Source: Ensifer sp. BR816 (GTDB taxonomy: Bacteria > Pseudomonadota > Alphaproteobacteria > Rhizobiales > Rhizobiaceae). From it: a DNA stretch of 64,000 bases. The stretch lies in NCBI RefSeq assembly GCF_000378985.1, contig NZ_KB905370.1, forward strand, positions 5,516,799 through 5,580,798, read 5' to 3'. This document shows, piece after piece, positions 20,980 through 63,483 of the stretch (within the stretch, counting starts at the first letter, position 1; each line of letters begins with the position of its first letter). Under the pieces are notes generated by a model. The model saw nothing but the letters and a program-made list of their open reading frames with translations, searched no databases and was not told the DNA's origin. The position numbers were made by a program, and so were the translations under genes.

Positions 20980-21083
20980 CGCATCGGCCCGAAAATCCGA
21001 GCTGATTTTCGGAAAGCACGATGCGTGGGTGCAAGGTGTTACAGCGCCCTTTTTGCGCGTCTGAAAAGACGCGCGGAGCTGTA
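20979..21083. repeat. RIME-type two-palindrome intergenic repeat, copy 1
   Basis: A 105-bp element of two hairpins. The first pairs GCGCATCG with CGATGCG and CCGAAAATC with GATTTTCGG. The second pairs TTACAGC with GCTGTAA and GCGCGTCT with AGACGCGC around GAAA. A second copy with the same architecture is at 36522-36625. The pattern fits the rhizobial intergenic mosaic elements (RIME); family membership is from memory, the repeat itself is seen directly. Confidence 0.85.
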
Positions 21084-21117
21084 AGAGAGAAGGCAGCGCC
21101 GGCTGCGCTGGAAGGGC

Positions 21118-36522: not shown

Positions 36523-36625
36523 CGCATCGGCCCGAAAATCGGACCCGATTTTCGGAAAGCTCGATGCGTAGTTTCCAAGACTTACAGCGTCCTTTGTGCG
36601 TCCGATAGGACGCACGGCGCTGTAA
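36522..36625. repeat. RIME-type two-palindrome intergenic repeat, copy 2
   Basis: A 104-bp element with the architecture of 20979-21083: GCGCATCGGCCCGAAAATC and its complement, then TTACAGC/GCTGTAA enclosing GTGCGTCC/GGACGCAC. Relative to copy 1 the inner stem differs at paired positions in both arms, so base pairing is preserved. It begins on the last base of the upstream TAG stop. Confidence 0.85.
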
Positions 36626-52546: not shown

Positions 52547-54349
52547 ATGGACGTATTGGCGGATCCGATAGAGCGGGCATTTCTCGGCGTCGAACGCTCG
52601 ATCAGCGGTCAGCGCTGGGTCTCGCGCCTGGATCAGGCCGGGCAGAATCGCGCCTTGGCGATCAGCCAGGTGCACGGCTATTCGGAGCTCATCGCAAGGG
52701 TGCTGGCAGGGCGCGGCGTCGGCCTTGATGATGCGGCGCAATTTCTCGACCCGACGCTCCGTGCGCTGATGCCCGATCCGGATCTGCTGACCGATTGCCG
52801 AAGGGCCGCGGAGCGACTCGCTCACGCCATTCGCCGCGGCGAAAAAGTCGCGATATTCGGCGATTACGATGTCGACGGGGCGGCGTCCTCGGCGCTGATG
52901 CTGCGGTTCCTGCGCCATTTCGACGTCCCGGCCGAGATCTATATTCCCGATCGAATCTTCGAGGGCTACGGTCCGAACCCGCACGCGATCGAGCAGTTGA
53001 TCGGCAACGGCGCCGCTCTGATCGTCACCGTCGACTGCGGCTCGACGAGCCATGAGTCGCTCGCCGTCGCTGCCGACCGCGGCATCGACGTGGTCGTCAT
53101 CGATCACCATCAGGTCGGTGCGACGCTTCCGCCGTGCCACGCGCTCGTCAATCCGAATCGCGAGGACGATTTGTCCGGGCAAGGGCACCTATGCGCCGCC
53201 GGCGTCGTCTATCTGGTGCTCGTCAACACATTGCGGGTGCTGCGCCTTGCGGGCGAGCCGCGTGTCGGGTCGTTCGATCTGCTGGCACTGCTCGACCTCG
53301 TCGCGCTCGCAACGGTCTGCGACGTGGTGCCGCTCAAGGGACTGAACCGCGCCTATGTCGTCAAGGGGCTGATCGCCGCGCGCCATATGGGCAATAACGG
53401 CTTGGCAGCCCTGCTGCGCAAGGCCGCAATTGGCGGCCCGGTGACGCCCTATCACCTCGGCTTTCTGATCGGGCCGCGCATCAATGCCGGCGGGCGGATC
53501 GGCGATGCAGCCCTCGGCAGCCGGCTCCTGACCCTCGATGATGCTACGGCGGCCGAGGTGATCGCCAGCCAGCTCGACGAGCTCAATCGCGAGCGGCAGG
53601 CGATGGAGGCGGCGATGCTCGCCGAGGCGGAGGCGGAAGTGCTGGCGGAATACGGCACGGGCGAGGGTGCCTCGGTGATCGTCACCGCCCGGGAAAACTG
53701 GCATCCTGGCATCGTTGGCCTCATCGCGGCGCGCATCAAGGAGAAGTTCCGCCGACCGGCCTTTGCGATCGCCTTCGACCCGAGCGGCCGCGGAACGGGC
53801 TCCGGCCGTTCGATCACCGGTTTTGACATGGGCAGGCTCGTTCGCGCGGCCGTCGATGATGGCCTCCTCGTCAAAGGCGGCGGACATGCCATGGCGGCCG
53901 GCCTGACGGTCGAGCGGGCCAAACTCGGGAGATTGCGCCAATTCTTCGAGGAGCGCGCCGAGACTGCGGTACGCGATCTGGTCGCCGTAGAGACCCTCAA
54001 GCTCGACGGCGCGCTGGCAGCGGCCGGGGCAACGCTCGACCTCGTCGACCTTCTCGACCAGGCGGGCCCCTATGGATCGGCTCATCCGCAGCCGGTCTTC
54101 GCCTTTCCCCAGCACCGGCTGCGCGACAGCCGTCAAGTCGGCGCCAATCATGTCAAGGTCACGCTCGAGGGCCATGACGGTAGCCGCATCGACGGTATCG
54201 CCTTCCGGGCGACGGAAACGCCGCTCGGCGATTTCCTGCTCGGCAATCGCGGCGCGACGGTTCATGTCGCCGGGTCCGTGTCGGCGGATCTCTGGCAAGG
54301 GTCACGTCGGGTGCAACTGCGCGTGTCGGACGCTGCGAAGGCCGGTTAG
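52547..54349 (+). CDS. recJ: Single-stranded-DNA-specific exonuclease RecJ
   Basis: A 600-aa DHH-family 5'-3' exonuclease used in recombination and mismatch repair. DHH phosphoesterase motifs: FGDYDVDGAASSALML, TVDCGSTSHE, VVVIDHHQVG and ALATVCDVVPL. The DHHA1 domain has WHPGIVGLIAARIKEKF and GGGHAMAAGLT, and a C-terminal OB-like domain follows. The start ATG 52547 begins MDVLADPIERAFLGVERS. It is separated from hom by a terminator and only 122 bp; the glpX gene usually found between hom and recJ in Rhizobiales is not here. Confidence 0.95.
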   Translation: MDVLADPIERAFLGVERSISGQRWVSRLDQAGQNRALAISQVHGYSELIARVLAGRGVGLDDAAQFLDPTLRALMPDPDLLTDCRRAAERLAHAIRRGEKVAIFGDYDVDGAASSALMLRFLRHFDVPAEIYIPDRIFEGYGPNPHAIEQLIGNGAALIVTVDCGSTSHESLAVAADRGIDVVVIDHHQVGATLPPCHALVNPNREDDLSGQGHLCAAGVVYLVLVNTLRVLRLAGEPRVGSFDLLALLDLVALATVCDVVPLKGLNRAYVVKGLIAARHMGNNGLAALLRKAAIGGPVTPYHLGFLIGPRINAGGRIGDAALGSRLLTLDDATAAEVIASQLDELNRERQAMEAAMLAEAEAEVLAEYGTGEGASVIVTARENWHPGIVGLIAARIKEKFRRPAFAIAFDPSGRGTGSGRSITGFDMGRLVRAAVDDGLLVKGGGHAMAAGLTVERAKLGRLRQFFEERAETAVRDLVAVETLKLDGALAAAGATLDLVDLLDQAGPYGSAHPQPVFAFPQHRLRDSRQVGANHVKVTLEGHDGSRIDGIAFRATETPLGDFLLGNRGATVHVAGSVSADLWQGSRRVQLRVSDAAKAG

Positions 54350-54496
54350 GGCGTTGCCTGCTGCTGGCTAAAATGCGTGAAGCTGCTTCAAAAATTCCTA
54401 GCAATAACAAAGCGATTGGCTGTACCGTGGGACGTGCCATTCCTCCTCTTTCCTATTTCACCTTTTTCATAGTATGTTGCTGATGCTTCGGCACAG

Positions 54497-54571
54497 GCGC
54501 CCATCGTCTAGCGGTCAGGACGCCGCCCTCTCACGGCGGTAACACGGGTTCGAGTCCCGTTGGGCGTACCA
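54497..54571 (+). tRNA. tRNA-Glu (anticodon CTC)
   Basis: Acceptor GCGCCCA pairs with TGGGCGT, CCA encoded at 54569-54571. The anticodon stem-loop CCGCC-CTCTCAC-GGCGG gives CTC. The T-arm is ACGGGTTCGAGTCCCGT. Its upstream sequence differs from that of the other three tRNA-Glu genes in this region. Confidence 0.95.
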
Positions 54572-54645
54572 ATTTCCTTGCCATCCGGCCGAGCCAATTT
54601 CCCGATTTTTCCCAAGAAAAATCCAACTTAGTCGCGCTCGGTCAC

Positions 54646-54674
54646 TTGCGGGAATCCGAAGGCCCCTCTATAAG
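54646..54674 (+). promoter_or_regulatory. Promoter of tRNA-Glu (TTC) copy 1
   Basis: TTGCGG and TATAAG with exactly 17 bp between them, 80 bp before the tRNA. The same two boxes and spacing precede the two inverted tRNA-Glu genes, which supports the call. A GCACGG/CCGTGC hairpin lies in the leader just before the tRNA. Confidence 0.8.
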
Positions 54675-54754
54675 CCACCTCGTCTTGCAGCGCCGTGCGC
54701 CATGCCGGTGCACAAAGGTCGCTGCAACGCTGCACGGTTACGAGCCGTGCGCAG

Positions 54755-54830
54755 GCGCCCATCGTCTAGCGGTCTAGGACGCCGCCCTTTCACGGCGGAA
54801 ACACGGGTTCGAGTCCCGTTGGGCGTGCCA
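54755..54830 (+). tRNA. tRNA-Glu (anticodon TTC), copy 1
   Basis: Acceptor GCGCCCA/TGGGCGT with CCA encoded at 54828-54830. CCGCC-CTTTCAC-GGCGG gives anticodon TTC. The promoter-to-tRNA unit 54646-54830 recurs twice in inverted orientation at 58623-58808 and 58941-59129. Confidence 0.97.
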
Positions 54831-55078
54831 TTGACCAATTAAATCAAATGGTTGCATCGTCTCTCGACTACGAGCTGCCGGAACAGTCGAGCGTCTCAAG
54901 CCGTTTGCGTTCCCGCCCTCGCAGGCCTATCCTTCAGCATTTTCTAATACGAAGATAAGCAAGTGCTACCGTCGGCATTTGGTGGAATGCCTCAACGCCG
55001 GCGAAACTACGCGAGGCTGATTTGGCCCTGACCCGGGCTGCCGGTCCAGGCAGGCCGGAACCAGACGGGGAAGCATCG

Positions 55079-55348
55079 ATGAACGATCGCGCTTCGATTA
55101 CGCTAGCTTGCATCCTTTTCAGCGGGGCGCTCGTCGCGTGCACAACTGTGACGGGCAGTATCGGGCCCACGCCCGGCACCCACCAGATCGCAGGTCATCC
55201 GTACCGGTCGATGAATGACTGCGTCCGCAGGACCCCCATCGGCCAGTTCGATCTAAAATGCGACGTTCCGCTCATCGGTTACCGCAACTTTTCCGATCCA
55301 ACGATCGTGCCGCAGGTCGGCGCACCCGGGGGCTTCCATTTCCGCTAG
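55079..55348 (+). CDS. Small lipoprotein of unknown function
   Basis: An 89-aa predicted lipoprotein: signal sequence ITLACILFSGALVACTTV with lipobox LVAC. The short mature part contains two further cysteines in MNDCVRRTPIGQFDLKCDVP and ends GGFHFR. I recognise no family. ATG 55079 has GGGGAAG six bases upstream; the frame is open further upstream to 55022. It is the first gene of the block enclosed by inverted tRNA-Glu genes, 248 bp after the tRNA, and the 495-aa exported protein gene follows. Confidence 0.72.
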   Translation: MNDRASITLACILFSGALVACTTVTGSIGPTPGTHQIAGHPYRSMNDCVRRTPIGQFDLKCDVPLIGYRNFSDPTIVPQVGAPGGFHFR

Positions 55349-55539
55349 ATGCGGCCGCACTCAAAGTAAACGAGGCGCAGGCCCAGACTTCGAGGCCGGC
55401 ACGAGGGGAGCCGTGTTCTGGTGCGCAGTCGCCAATCTCATCCGGGACGTTCGAGGTGAGATGCGCCGGCGCCGCATTCCCTCTAGCGAGGAACGATCCA
55501 AGGCAGTATCATGGCAAGTCGCCCCGGCGGGACTTAGCT

Positions 55540-57027
55540 ATGGCAACACTCAGCCTCATCTCGTTCTGCCTCGTTCTGCTGCTTGGCTCTCCCGCAGTAG
55601 GGCAGGCAGCAAATCGCGACAGACTTGCCCCGCAAGATACGCTCGAAATCAGCGCTTCGGGATGGGATGCGTTGCTTGGCGGCTTGCCCGATACGGCGAT
55701 CGAGGCAATGGGGATGTCCGACCTTCCGAGAATCGGACGGCTGCTCGGTACTGGGCAGGTCGAGCTCGCTGCGATGAAGGCCCAGCTCAAGCCAGAAGCG
55801 GACACGACTGCGCCGGACGGGGAGGTCGCGGAAGTCTGGATCGACGAGGCATTTGCGCTGACCCCGCGCGAACGCGCCAGAAGCGCTGCGCCGGCGGAAA
55901 TTCTTCTCGCGGCAAGCCAGGAGGCCGATGCGCCCAAGAGTGGCATGCAGTTGGCCGGGGGCAAGCTGGAGGAAATTCTGCGCCGCGCTCTGGCGGCGGC
56001 CAGACGAGACCTCGAGGCGATGCGGAGTGTCGCCGAGAAGCAGCGCCAAAGAGCAGACGCACTCGCGCGAGATCTGACGATGATGCTGCAAGTCGTCGAA
56101 GAGGTGGAGGCCAAAGCCGCTGGAGCAATGCGGGCAAAGGCTGCCGCGCTCCGGGCGCGAGACGCCGCGGAAGCGGCCCTGGCCGATGAGAGACGGGCAC
56201 TTGATGAGGTGCGGCGAAAGCAGGCAACTTACGAAGTTCGTCAGTCGACTGCGGCCCCGCGGACTGACGTCAGTTTGACAGTGGCAGGGAAGGCCGCCGA
56301 CGTGGAGGCCCGTCAAATTGCCGAGGCTGCGGCAAGGCGGGCTGTCGAAGAGCTCGCGCTGGAACGCGGGAAGGCGAGGTCGCTCGCACGGGAACTCGAC
56401 TCCGTTCGCCGTGAGCGCGACGCGACAAAACGGTGGGCGACGCAGGACGGGCGCGATCTCGCTGTAGCGCGCCAAATTGCTGAGGCTGCGGCAAGGCGGG
56501 CTGTCGAAGAGCTCGCGGCGGAACGCGAGAGGGCAGCTTTGCTAGCGCGGGAGCTCGACTCCGCCCGCCGTGAACGCGACGCGGCAAACCGGTGGGCGAT
56601 ACAGGACGGCCGCGATCTCGTCGTGGCCCGCCAATTGACCGCAGTTCCGCAGCCCGACGCCAATTTGGTAGCGGCGGAGAAGGCCGCCGTCATGCTGGCT
56701 CGCCAAATTGCCGAGGCTGCGGCAAGTCGGGCTGTCGAACAGCTCGCATTGGAACGCGAGAAGGCAGCGTCACTCGCGCGCGAGCTCGACGCCGCTCTCC
56801 AGGAACGCGATGCGGCGAAGAAGCAATTGACCCGGATATCGGCGGCGCAGCAGCGTGCGTCGGAGGAGCCGCGCGAGCGGGCCGATGGCCGCGCGCCTGC
56901 GGCGACGCGAAAGGAAATTGCCCCGCGCAAGACCCGCACGGAGCGCCGAGAGGCGGGCATGGAGCGCGCACCGAAGCCGCTGCCCGACGAGCTTCTCCCC
57001 AGGCGGCTGTTGCCCGGCCTCTGGTAA
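55540..57027 (+). CDS. Exported coiled-coil protein with internal repeats, unknown function
   Basis: A 495-aa protein with a signal peptide (LSLISFCLVLLLGSPAVGQA, about residues 4-23), then a short globular part (ISASGWDALLGGLPDTAIEAM). A long Ala/Arg/Glu-rich coiled coil runs from about residue 145 to 450. Three related units start ARQIAEAAARRAVEEL or a close variant at residues 257, 310 and 387. The first two are spaced exactly 53 residues apart, sharing LARELDS-RRERDA and TQDGRDL-type segments. The C-terminus is basic and Pro-rich, ending LLPGLW. No enzymatic motif is seen. ATG 55540 has only a weak ribosome site; a nearby ATG at 55511 leads quickly to a stop. Confidence 0.75.
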   Translation: MATLSLISFCLVLLLGSPAVGQAANRDRLAPQDTLEISASGWDALLGGLPDTAIEAMGMSDLPRIGRLLGTGQVELAAMKAQLKPEADTTAPDGEVAEVWIDEAFALTPRERARSAAPAEILLAASQEADAPKSGMQLAGGKLEEILRRALAAARRDLEAMRSVAEKQRQRADALARDLTMMLQVVEEVEAKAAGAMRAKAAALRARDAAEAALADERRALDEVRRKQATYEVRQSTAAPRTDVSLTVAGKAADVEARQIAEAAARRAVEELALERGKARSLARELDSVRRERDATKRWATQDGRDLAVARQIAEAAARRAVEELAAERERAALLARELDSARRERDAANRWAIQDGRDLVVARQLTAVPQPDANLVAAEKAAVMLARQIAEAAASRAVEQLALEREKAASLARELDAALQERDAAKKQLTRISAAQQRASEEPRERADGRAPAATRKEIAPRKTRTERREAGMERAPKPLPDELLPRRLLPGLW

Positions 57028-57070
57028 GGGGGAAGTCCAGGAGTGACATGCGCAGATAAGGACTATGGCG

Positions 57071-57763
57071 ATGCGGGCCTACTTGGCCGCGACCTTCCTG
57101 ATTGCAGTTACAATGGGGCTGGCCCCGGCTTTGGACCTGGGTGGTCAGTTCGGTGGTGTGGGACTCGGCGCCGCGGCCGCGGGTGGCAAAAACGGCGGCC
57201 AGTCGAAGACCAGCGCCGGAGGCGGAAAAAAGGCTGGAGCCGCGGTCGGTGCGAAAGCGGGACCGAGCAGCGGGGTTCGCGGCAACGCCGGCGGCCAGAG
57301 TCATGGCACATCGACCGGAAGTGGTGCGGTGGGTGGCAAAATTGGCGGATCGTCAACGAACACCGCGGGAGCCGGCGTCGCTCCCGCAACGGGCGTATCG
57401 ACGTCCGTCCGCCTGCCTTCTACCCTTTGGCCGTTAAAGTCTGGGCTCGGCGAGCGCGGCGAGTACGAGGAGGGCGTTTTGGGCTATCGCGTGACCGACC
57501 CAATGACAACGGGAGCGATTTCGGATGGCACAGGCGCCGTGGTTCGCGTCTGCCTCCAGGCGATCACGTCGGCCGCATTGCCCCTTGGCGCCGTGCGGGT
57601 ACGCGGCGCAAGCGCCGGTCCTCTAGTCGCGCAACGCGGTGGCGCGCTGACGGCTCCAATTGCCGTGCGCATAGAATATGCGCGACAAGGCGGCGCCGAG
57701 GTCCGTCAGGCGCGAGTCAGGTGCCATCTCGACTCGAACGGCATGGTCATCGCGGTGACTTGA
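57071..57763 (+). CDS. Secreted Gly/Ala-rich protein with a C-terminal two-cysteine domain
   Basis: A 230-aa protein: signal peptide MRAYLAATFLIAVTMGLAPA, then a Gly/Ala/Ser/Lys-rich low-complexity region (about residues 23-105). The C-terminal domain (about 150-230) contains VCLQAI, IEYARQGGAEVRQARVRC and a terminal NGMVIAV. That domain aligns without gaps to the C-terminus of the 119-aa protein at 58091, with both cysteines 57 positions apart in each. ATG 57071 has AAGGA eight bases upstream; ATG 57065 is too close to it. It is 43 bp after the coiled-coil gene, probably the same operon. Confidence 0.75.
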   Translation: MRAYLAATFLIAVTMGLAPALDLGGQFGGVGLGAAAAGGKNGGQSKTSAGGGKKAGAAVGAKAGPSSGVRGNAGGQSHGTSTGSGAVGGKIGGSSTNTAGAGVAPATGVSTSVRLPSTLWPLKSGLGERGEYEEGVLGYRVTDPMTTGAISDGTGAVVRVCLQAITSAALPLGAVRVRGASAGPLVAQRGGALTAPIAVRIEYARQGGAEVRQARVRCHLDSNGMVIAVT

Positions 57764-58090
57764 ACCGCGCGACAGGATCGTCGGCAGGCTCAGGTAGGGC
57801 ATCGGCACAGCAGGCGGAACACCGGCGCGGCGGGACCTCTGTCTACGCGAGCCGCGCCGTCAAGAGGCAAGGAGACCACACCGGTCCGAGCGGCGCATCA
57901 AATGGTCTGGCCGCGGGCCCCGGACCTACAAAGCGTGGCCGGCATACACAGCTACAGATCCGCGACGCGTCGAGACCCGGGCCCCAAAGCTCCTCCTCCC
58001 ATCCATCAAAAGTCGCACTGCAATGTTGATGGGGAGACAAGTTAGAATGCCTTTCTCCTAGGAAGTTGGCTCCAGAGAGGACGACACGCC
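57764..58090. other. Noncoding spacer between the two paralogous secreted-protein genes
   Basis: These 327 bp hold no credible gene. Open frames crossing the region are shadows of high-GC coding sequence upstream. No strong hairpin or promoter was identified, although GAGAGGA near the right end serves as ribosome site for the gene at 58091. Confidence 0.4.
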
Positions 58091-58450
58091 ATGCAGACGA
58101 TCAGAATGCTCAGCGCCGCGATGCTTTTTCTCACTGGTCCAGCCTTCGCGGCCGACTTGCTGCCGGAACCGGTGACGCCGGTCAGCCACGGCGTTTCGCC
58201 GGCCGATCAGCCGACCGTCAACAGCTGCAACGAGGCGATCGCCCAATGGGCTGCGCCATACAATCCGGCAGCCGTCGAGACCAGCCTGGCCGAGCCCGTG
58301 CGTGCAGGCGCGGCCGGCGAGCGGATCGCCACGCTCAACGTCAAGATCGACTATGAGCGCCAGGGTGGCACCGACCCGCGCTCGGCGACCATCGCCTGCA
58401 CGGTGGCGTCGGACGGAGAGGTCAGTGTTGCGGTCCTCGAGGAAGGGTAA
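58091..58450 (+). CDS. Small secreted protein sharing the two-cysteine domain
   Basis: A 119-aa protein with a signal peptide (IRMLSAAMLFLTGPAFA, cleaved before ADLLPEP). A single domain contains SCNEAIAQWAAP, KIDYERQGGTDPRSATIAC and DGEVSVAV. Cys-x2-AI, Tyr-x-RQGG and the second Cys sit at the same spacing as in the C-terminus of the protein at 57071, so the two are paralogues and probably disulfide-linked folds. I recognise no characterised family. GAGAGGA precedes the ATG. The gene ends 172 bp before an inverted tRNA-Glu gene. Confidence 0.78.
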   Translation: MQTIRMLSAAMLFLTGPAFAADLLPEPVTPVSHGVSPADQPTVNSCNEAIAQWAAPYNPAAVETSLAEPVRAGAAGERIATLNVKIDYERQGGTDPRSATIACTVASDGEVSVAVLEEG

Positions 58451-58622
58451 GGCGGGATCCCGCCAGCAGGACGAGCCTCTCTGCCGCTCCTGCGTAGTCT
58501 ATGTTGATGCTGTTCGGCCGCTGGCCGCTCGGATCATTGGAAGAGACGCGCCAACCGATGCCTTCCCGTGCCTTCAGGAAAGGTCGAAGAACTGCCTGTA
58601 TCTATCTGAAATTTTTAAAGAA

Positions 58623-58698
58623 TGGCACGCCCAACGGGAATCGAACCCGTGTTTCCGCCGTGAAAGGGCGGCGTCCTAGACCGCTAGACGATGGGCGC
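58623..58698 (-). tRNA. tRNA-Glu (anticodon TTC), copy 2
   Basis: Minus strand, 76 nt with CCA at 58625-58623. The anticodon stem-loop is the same CCGCC-CTTTCAC-GGCGG. It differs from copies 1 and 3 by one base in the T-loop (GGGTTCGATTCCC). It points toward the enclosed gene block, opposite to copy 1. A T-rich stretch follows its 3' end on the minus strand. Confidence 0.96.
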
Positions 58699-58779
58699 CT
58701 GCGCACGGTTGGTAAACCGTGCAGCATTCGAGTGTTGCAGCGACCTTATGCGCCAGCACGGCGCTGCAAGACGAGGTGG

Positions 58780-58808
58780 CTTATAGAGAGCGCCTGGGAT
58801 TCCCGCAA
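58780..58808 (-). promoter_or_regulatory. Promoter of tRNA-Glu (TTC) copy 2
   Basis: On the minus strand TTGCGG and TATAAG are separated by 17 bp, identical boxes and spacing to those at 54646 and 59101. Confidence 0.8.
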
Positions 58809-58940
58809 GTCACCTGGAACAATATTTTTCGATTTTTCGGCAAGAATTTAAGAGGATCGCATCAGGCTCTTTTCGCGCGTAAGCATAAGCTCGGCGCGTG
58901 CGACACCAGCGAAGTATTCGCAAGAATTCGAGAAGAAGAA

Positions 58941-59016
58941 TGGCACGCCCAACGGGACTCGAACCCGTGTTTCCGCCGTGAAAGGGCGGCGTCCTAGACC
59001 GCTAGACGATGGGCGC
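58941..59016 (-). tRNA. tRNA-Glu (anticodon TTC), copy 3
   Basis: Minus strand, 76 nt with encoded CCA; identical anticodon arm to copies 1 and 2 and T-loop identical to copy 1. It lies 242 bp upstream of copy 2 on the same strand. Confidence 0.97.
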
Positions 59017-59100
59017 CCCCGCACGGTTAGTAAACCGTGCAGAAATTCAAAGTGTTGCAGCGACCTTTGTGCGCCAGCACGGCGCTGCAAGACGAAGTGG

Positions 59101-59129
59101 CTTATAGAGAGCACTTCGGATTCCCGCAA
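59101..59129 (-). promoter_or_regulatory. Promoter of tRNA-Glu (TTC) copy 3
   Basis: On the minus strand TTGCGG and TATAAG with a 17-bp spacer, the third occurrence of this promoter type in the region. Confidence 0.8.

Positions 59130-63406: not shown

Positions 63407-63483
<77 letters not shown>

Follow-up and report, generated by a model that had tools for sequence, protein, structure and literature searches.

The subject of this analysis is a cluster of tRNA-Glu genes in the genome of Ensifer sp. BR816. It is contained in a stretch of 64,000 nucleotides (nt) of contig NZ_KB905370.1 (positions 5,516,799 to 5,580,798), which is called the window in the following, and it lies between recJ and a gene for an M15 peptidase. 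The four tRNA-Glu genes were called with ARAGORN, and the Rfam tRNA model agreed on four of four. This confirmed the order given in a preliminary description of the DNA, i.e., a CTC and a TTC gene on the plus strand, followed by two TTC genes on the minus strand. The TTC genes, named TTC1, TTC2 and TTC3, share a whole unit of promoter-like sequence, leader with hairpin and tRNA (54646-54830, 58623-58808 and 58941-59129), also as described before. Judged by the motif match, every one of the three TTC genes is preceded by a separate promoter-like sequence. The coordinates of all features are collected in Table 1. The inverted tRNA arms comprise 95 nt with 96-97% complementarity, the promoter arms 54-59 nt with 90-93%. 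When the TTC unit was used as query against its own genome, four matches at E<=1e-10 were found, every one at the tRNA-Glu locus. With a longer query that included both minus-strand units, the matches elsewhere in this genome were short and partial, and they were copies of the leader repeat described below.

Four open reading frames (ORFs), genes A to D, lie between the inner tRNA genes. They had been described as four exported proteins without known function. Comparison of the four with Pfam and NCBIfam yielded no Pfam family over the cut-off and no NCBIfam family, and their N-termini resemble signal peptides, as judged by eye only and without a predictor; this part of the description stood. 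Gene A is part of a flipped segment and not of the block of genes B, C and D. Genes C and D have a stretch in common (34% over 77 amino acids).

Table 1. Features of the tRNA-Glu locus, in positions of the window.
Feature	Position	Strand	Basis or remark
Inverted segment (tRNA-end remnant, CTC, TTC1 unit, gene A)	54389-55358		blastn
Decayed tRNA-Glu 3'-end copy, candidate attachment-site remnant	54422-54441	+	15/20 matches to tRNA 3' end
Former TTC2-CTC spacer, kept before CTC	54442-54496	+	resembles spacer of compact genomes G011, G020
tRNA-Glu(CTC)	54497-54571	+	ARAGORN and Rfam tRNA model
TTC1 promoter-like sequence TTGCGG-17-TATAAG	54646-54674	+	sequence match
TTC1 leader, 80 nt	54675-54754	+	related to dispersed palindromic repeat
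tRNA-Glu(TTC), copy TTC1	54755-54830	+	ARAGORN and Rfam tRNA model
Gene A, 89 amino acids	55079-55348	+	lipoprotein-like by eye
Gene B, 495 amino acids	55540-57027	+	repetitive, coiled-coil-like; signal-peptide-like N-terminus
Gene C, 232 amino acids	57065-57763	+	exported-like; C-terminal part related to gene D
Gene D, 119 amino acids	58091-58450	+	exported-like; relatives at other loci too
tRNA-Glu(TTC), copy TTC2	58623-58698	-	ARAGORN and Rfam; 3' end is junction of B-C-D insert
TTC2 leader, 81 nt	58699-58779	-	repeat-related
TTC2 promoter-like sequence TTGCGG-17-TATAAG	58780-58808	-
tRNA-Glu(TTC), copy TTC3	58941-59016	-	ARAGORN and Rfam tRNA model
TTC3 leader, 84 nt	59017-59100	-	best of the three against profile of dispersed copies
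TTC3 promoter-like sequence TTGCGG-17-TATAAG	59101-59129	-

Gene order in related genomes and the flipped segment

All 33 genomes of the genus that were compared matched the TTC unit. The cluster was read in 32 of them, the window's genome (G000) included and the fragmented G031 left out. In all 31 other genomes every tRNA-Glu gene at the recJ-M15 locus is on the strand opposite recJ, and the usual order is recJ-TTC1-CTC-TTC2-TTC3-M15. Where no insert is present, TTC2 and CTC are 56-107 nt apart, CTC and TTC1 109-220 nt, and TTC2 and TTC3 167-249 nt. The tRNA-Glu genes of S. meliloti 1021 are numbered 035 (UUC), 036 (UUC), 037 (CUC) and 038 (UUC) in Table 3 of PMC11476347, and the order according to these gene numbers is the same as in the relatives studied here.

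One genome, G003, has one TTC gene fewer at the locus. A variable tRNA-Glu copy number, for which the preliminary description had proposed a test, is supported by the comparison. The upstream part of its M15-side TTC unit is TTC3-like (identity 0.74-0.79 versus 0.50-0.58), and the downstream part is TTC2-like (0.91 versus G014 and G015, two of four relatives). Judged by these identities the unit is a chimera, as would be left by a deletion through recombination between TTC units. In G028 no CTC gene was seen, and the stretch holds N. Two TTC genes were found at the locus in G018, whose contig also carries a group of TTC, CTC and TTC elsewhere. This second group (L057, 5372-5765) is about 288 kilobases (kb) away from the recJ-M15 locus and adjoins N; it represents either a rearrangement or a scaffolding error. 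A promoter-like sequence directly 5' of CTC was seen by eye in G005 (TTGGGA-17-TATATG), G010, G016, G025, G026, G027, G029 and G032. These genomes form one clade, in which CTC is often apart from TTC2.

The window's genome was the only one of the 32 in which the segment A-TTC1-CTC is inverted. In blastn comparisons 54389-55356 was inverted versus G007 and 54435-55358 versus G006, and the flanks were collinear on both sides. Collinearity with these two genomes extends up to the end of recJ (54343-54345) and starts again from 55453 or 55479. The segment thus comprises about 1.0-1.1 kb, with breakpoints within about 54344-54389 and 55358-55453, which, according to the alignments, are outside the tRNA units. 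Gene A, searched with an in-frame query, was found in 9 of the 32 genomes including the window's, and its place in the eight relatives is between recJ and TTC1 on the opposite strand. A search for inverted repeats at the breakpoints yielded nothing above chance; the longest match was 7 nt, a length that 100 of 200 shuffles also gave. Outside the window's genome the TTC units are direct repeats, and, therefore, recombination between two units can cause deletions, but no inversions. Because the units are direct in the relatives and the breakpoints have no inverted repeat above chance, the inverted units of the window are a consequence of the flip, which probably took a non-homologous route.

Insertions at tRNA 3' ends and the B-C-D block

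Inserts of 0.75-18 kb are present in 19 of the 32 genomes, 3' of TTC2 or CTC. On the TTC2-CTC side they were found in 14 genomes, with the window's genome counted there by ancestral order, and between CTC and TTC1 in 8 genomes; no insert was seen between TTC2 and TTC3 in any of the 32. The sizes for G010, G027 and G032, where the insert spans two stretches, were taken from match coordinates. From 128 ORFs listed from inserts, 30 were compared with Pfam. The insert of G008 encodes a tyrosine integrase and a tape-measure protein, and that of G022 a tyrosine integrase and a capsid protein. The integrase in the insert of G010 is 89% identical to the G022 integrase by similarity search. C-terminal pieces of integrases were found in the inserts of 0.75-0.77 kb in G016 (36% over 66 amino acids) and G029 (61% over 33 amino acids). 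The other inserts at the locus had no match to two integrase queries, and Pfam revealed no integrase in the ORFs compared from G019 (5 of 9) and G025 (6 of 12). The G025 island, also without similarity to the two queries, carries ABC transporter and polysaccharide genes and has relatives in G010, G026, G027 and G032. In G010 and G022 the CTC-side insert has a copy of the tRNA tail at its far end, 47 and 48 nt long at 94 and 92%. The preliminary description had named tRNA-Glu 3' ends as integration targets and had suggested an exchange of cassettes. Both ideas are supported by these inserts, as some of them carry tyrosine integrases or remnants thereof and their content differs among genomes. 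The insert between TTC2 and CTC in G002 also contains a decayed tRNA-Glu copy (L040, 9328-9401; 85-89% identical over about 70-75 nt), which is near an ORF similar to lactate/malate dehydrogenases.

The B-C-D block is present in six genomes, i.e., in the window's genome, G002, G006, G007, G008 and G009. It abuts the 3' end of the intact TTC2 and lies between TTC2 and CTC, in the window's genome by ancestral order. The old spacer between TTC2 and CTC was kept before CTC in all six. Before the kept spacer there is a copy of the tRNA 3' end with 15, 17 and 15 of 20 bases in G000, G007 and G008, and 2, 0 and 1 of 1000 mononucleotide shuffles, respectively, were as good. In the window this copy is at offset -77, as is the intact tRNA end in the compact genome G020. 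Such copies were likewise found with other inserts in G016, G029 and G032 (0, 4 and 3 of 1000 shuffles as good), and a partial copy above chance was thus present in 6 of the 14 genomes with an insert on the TTC2 side. The block separates CTC from the TTC2 promoter, and a putative CTC promoter may lie in the kept spacer. Relatives of gene D were found at six loci. Two are tRNA-Glu loci (S. americanum CFNEI 156 and S. fredii USDA 205), while the remaining four (L077, L078, L079 and L080; Ensifer/Sinorhizobium) have neither recJ nor a tRNA-Glu gene within 6 kb, showing that the gene D family is not bound to the tRNA-Glu locus.

In the favoured explanation, the conserved tRNA-Glu cluster of Sinorhizobium/Ensifer (recJ, TTC1, CTC, TTC2, TTC3, M15 peptidase) has repeatedly served for insertion at tRNA 3' ends. 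In the case of the B-C-D block, an integrative element most likely entered at the 3' end of TTC2, leaving TTC2 intact and a partial copy of the tRNA 3' end beside CTC. The element would then have lost its integrase, and genes B, C and D would have remained.

According to the available text of PMC11476347, genomic islands and prophages of S. meliloti are mostly found at tRNA 3' ends, with the tRNA preserved, short direct repeats and integrases, and 25 of 52 tRNA genes are used for insertion. By its wording, tRNA-Glu(CTC) may be among these 25. The preferred sites named in that text are genes 010, 030 and 039, and the numbers 035-038 occur there, figures aside, in Table 3 only. As far as this text goes, the locus resembles these islands in that insertion was at tRNA 3' ends, the tRNA was kept and some inserts have integrases, and it differs in that the B-C-D block is a decayed remnant, in other species. 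The phenomenon is of an ordinary class, namely the known one of insertion hotspots at tRNA genes, to which a single genome adds an inversion.

The leader and the dispersed palindromic repeat

The three leaders of the window fold more stably than dinucleotide shuffles (z -3.9, -3.4 and -4.4). Among the 96 TTC units, the distance between the -10 sequence and the tRNA is 13-15 nt in 53 and 37-88 nt in 43. At least one long leader was found in 18 of the 32 genomes, and in 13 every TTC unit that was read has one. On a recJ tree, of whose 29 inner branches 7 are open, the TTC1 leader requires a minimum of four changes and any long leader a minimum of three. Among 199 genomes of the family, 30 contained the short-spacer pattern; owing to its strictness, little can be concluded from genomes that did not match. 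As short spacers also occur in other genera, the short form may be the older one.

A model built from the leaders had at least 150 matches at E<=1 in the own genome and at least 143 at E<=1e-3, with rough E-values; three of the matches are the leaders themselves. The model also matched 82 of the 199 family genomes. Apart from the leaders, the 20 best copies conform to the type CTACAGCGCCGCGCGTC...GACGCGCAAAGGTCGCTGTAGCACTTTGA with slight variations, and the dispersed copies that were fetched are up to about 108 nt long and have two palindromes. When the 149 listed chromosomal matches were compared with 48 tRNA genes, only three, namely the TTC leaders, were situated closely 5' of a tRNA and on the same strand, at 20-31 nt. 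A further listed match was 228 nt away from a tRNA, on the opposite strand. A reverse profile was made from 13 of the 20 fetched dispersed copies, leaving out 7 without GCATG at the second palindrome. It matched 29 of the 43 long units at E<=1e-3 and none of the 53 short units. The values for the leaders of the window were 5.9e-10, 9.3e-5 and 1.1e-3, so that one narrowly missed 1e-3. Two further copies of the repeat are present in the window (21031-21093 and 36574-36625, both on the minus strand); behind either copy there is a second palindrome that ends with GGGCCGATGCGCTAG.

Going by the matches in both directions, the leader is a member of a family of dispersed palindromic repeats, here placed between promoter and tRNA. 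At this position the repeat would be transcribed as the leader, and it probably spread or was lost among the TTC units by gene conversion. This repeat-derived tRNA leader is the most unusual part of the locus. The family is probably that of the Rhizobium-specific intergenic mosaic elements (RIME), which are dispersed repeats of rhizobial intergenic regions and were reportedly described by Osteras et al. in 1995. They are mentioned in PMC2573895 and PMC2245857, and the title of Osteras et al. 1995 is cited in PMC2873474. The copies found here are likewise many and dispersed, with two palindromes; a difference is that copies here lie between a promoter and a tRNA. A literature search by titles and beginnings of abstracts revealed nothing on a repeat in a tRNA-Glu leader.

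It is a tentative and rather unlikely proposal that, in several lineages of Sinorhizobium, all tRNA-Glu(UUC) precursors have acquired the repeat as their 5' leader, that it spreads between the units by gene conversion, and that processing of the repeat-derived hairpin has become a requirement for tRNA-Glu(UUC) supply. If the leader affects maturation of tRNA-Glu, species with and without it would constitute a natural test.

Alternative explanations and neighbouring sites

The joint explanation of the locus, i.e., a history of insertion at the TTC2 end, a separate inversion of A-TTC1-CTC and a leader derived from a repeat, is given a probability of roughly 0.8. Several observations weigh against it. 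In G002, G006 and G009, three of the six genomes with the block, no copy of the tRNA 3' end exceeds chance, nor does one with the inserts of G010, G019, G025, G026 and G027. The B-C-D block has no similarity to the two integrase queries, in agreement with the earlier statement that no integrase is present, and the window proteins have no family above the cut-off. The block is common to six species, which marks it as an old resident and not as a recently exchanged cassette, and it needs three changes on the recJ tree. The evidence for the inversion comes from a single genome. For the shortened cluster of G003, the downstream comparison was uninformative versus G013 and G022, with an ungapped identity of 0.18-0.40 for all units. 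The absence of integrase similarity and the three genomes without a copy above chance would also fit an arrival of the block by homologous exchange or another route, which joined the 3' end of TTC2 by chance. This is regarded as unlikely, since the block adjoins a tRNA 3' end while the former spacer is retained at its far side, G000, G007 and G008 have a partial copy of the tRNA at the corresponding site, and other inserts at the locus carry tyrosine integrases. The preliminary description had put forward that recombination between the inverted tRNA units could flip the segment with the exported proteins. Their 95-nt arms would in principle be enough for homologous recombination, and, as in invertible DNA cassettes, inverted repeats surround the block in the window's genome. 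In contrast to such cassettes, the orientation of the B-C-D block relative to recJ and M15 is constant in all six genomes that have it. An inversion of the block between tRNA units was rejected on this constancy. The part that did flip is A-TTC1-CTC, with its breakpoints outside the units, and the units are direct repeats in the relatives, so that the cassette is considered extremely improbable. An assembly error as the origin of the A-TTC1-CTC orientation is very improbable. The orientation was seen in one genome of 32 and close to repeats able to confuse assembly, yet mis-joins are expected at repeats, none of which was found in inverted form above chance at the breakpoints, and this genome is assembled in three contigs.

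With respect to the leader, the alternative is a functional RNA specific for tRNA-Glu, regulatory or involved in processing, in place of a repeat insertion. Using a hand-written structure, 84.6% of the cells were paired versus 22.5-42.7% in slid controls, and 38 cells were changed on both sides versus 19 in shuffles (0 of 500 as high); the 13 genomes with a long leader on every unit read would fit as well. However, the number of pairs with double changes was 9 versus 8.8 in shuffles (291 of 500). Such shuffles can also be surpassed by related sequences that have no structure. The hairpin occurs at more than 100 other places of the own genome, none of them, among the listed matches, just upstream of another tRNA, and 53 of the 96 TTC units do not have it. 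A tRNA-Glu-specific RNA is thus judged distinctly improbable, and it was dropped on the genome-wide matches to the leader model. RNAalifold predicted no pairs on the leader alignment, for which alignment gaps were blamed.

With the insertion history, the inversion and the repeat-derived leader as joint explanation, the idea of an invertible cassette is replaced by a readable history of one tRNA cluster, in which two adjoining tRNA 3' ends were reused. Remnants at several stages of decay are present, and the inversion turned direct tRNA repeats into inverted ones.

The window also carries a tRNA-Arg(TCT) gene at 63407-63483. Downstream of the tRNA-Glu locus, integrase-like sequence was found near tRNA-Arg(TCT) in three relatives (L062, 18665-19270; L051, 10321-10956; L060, 10445-10654), which suggests a second insertion site.

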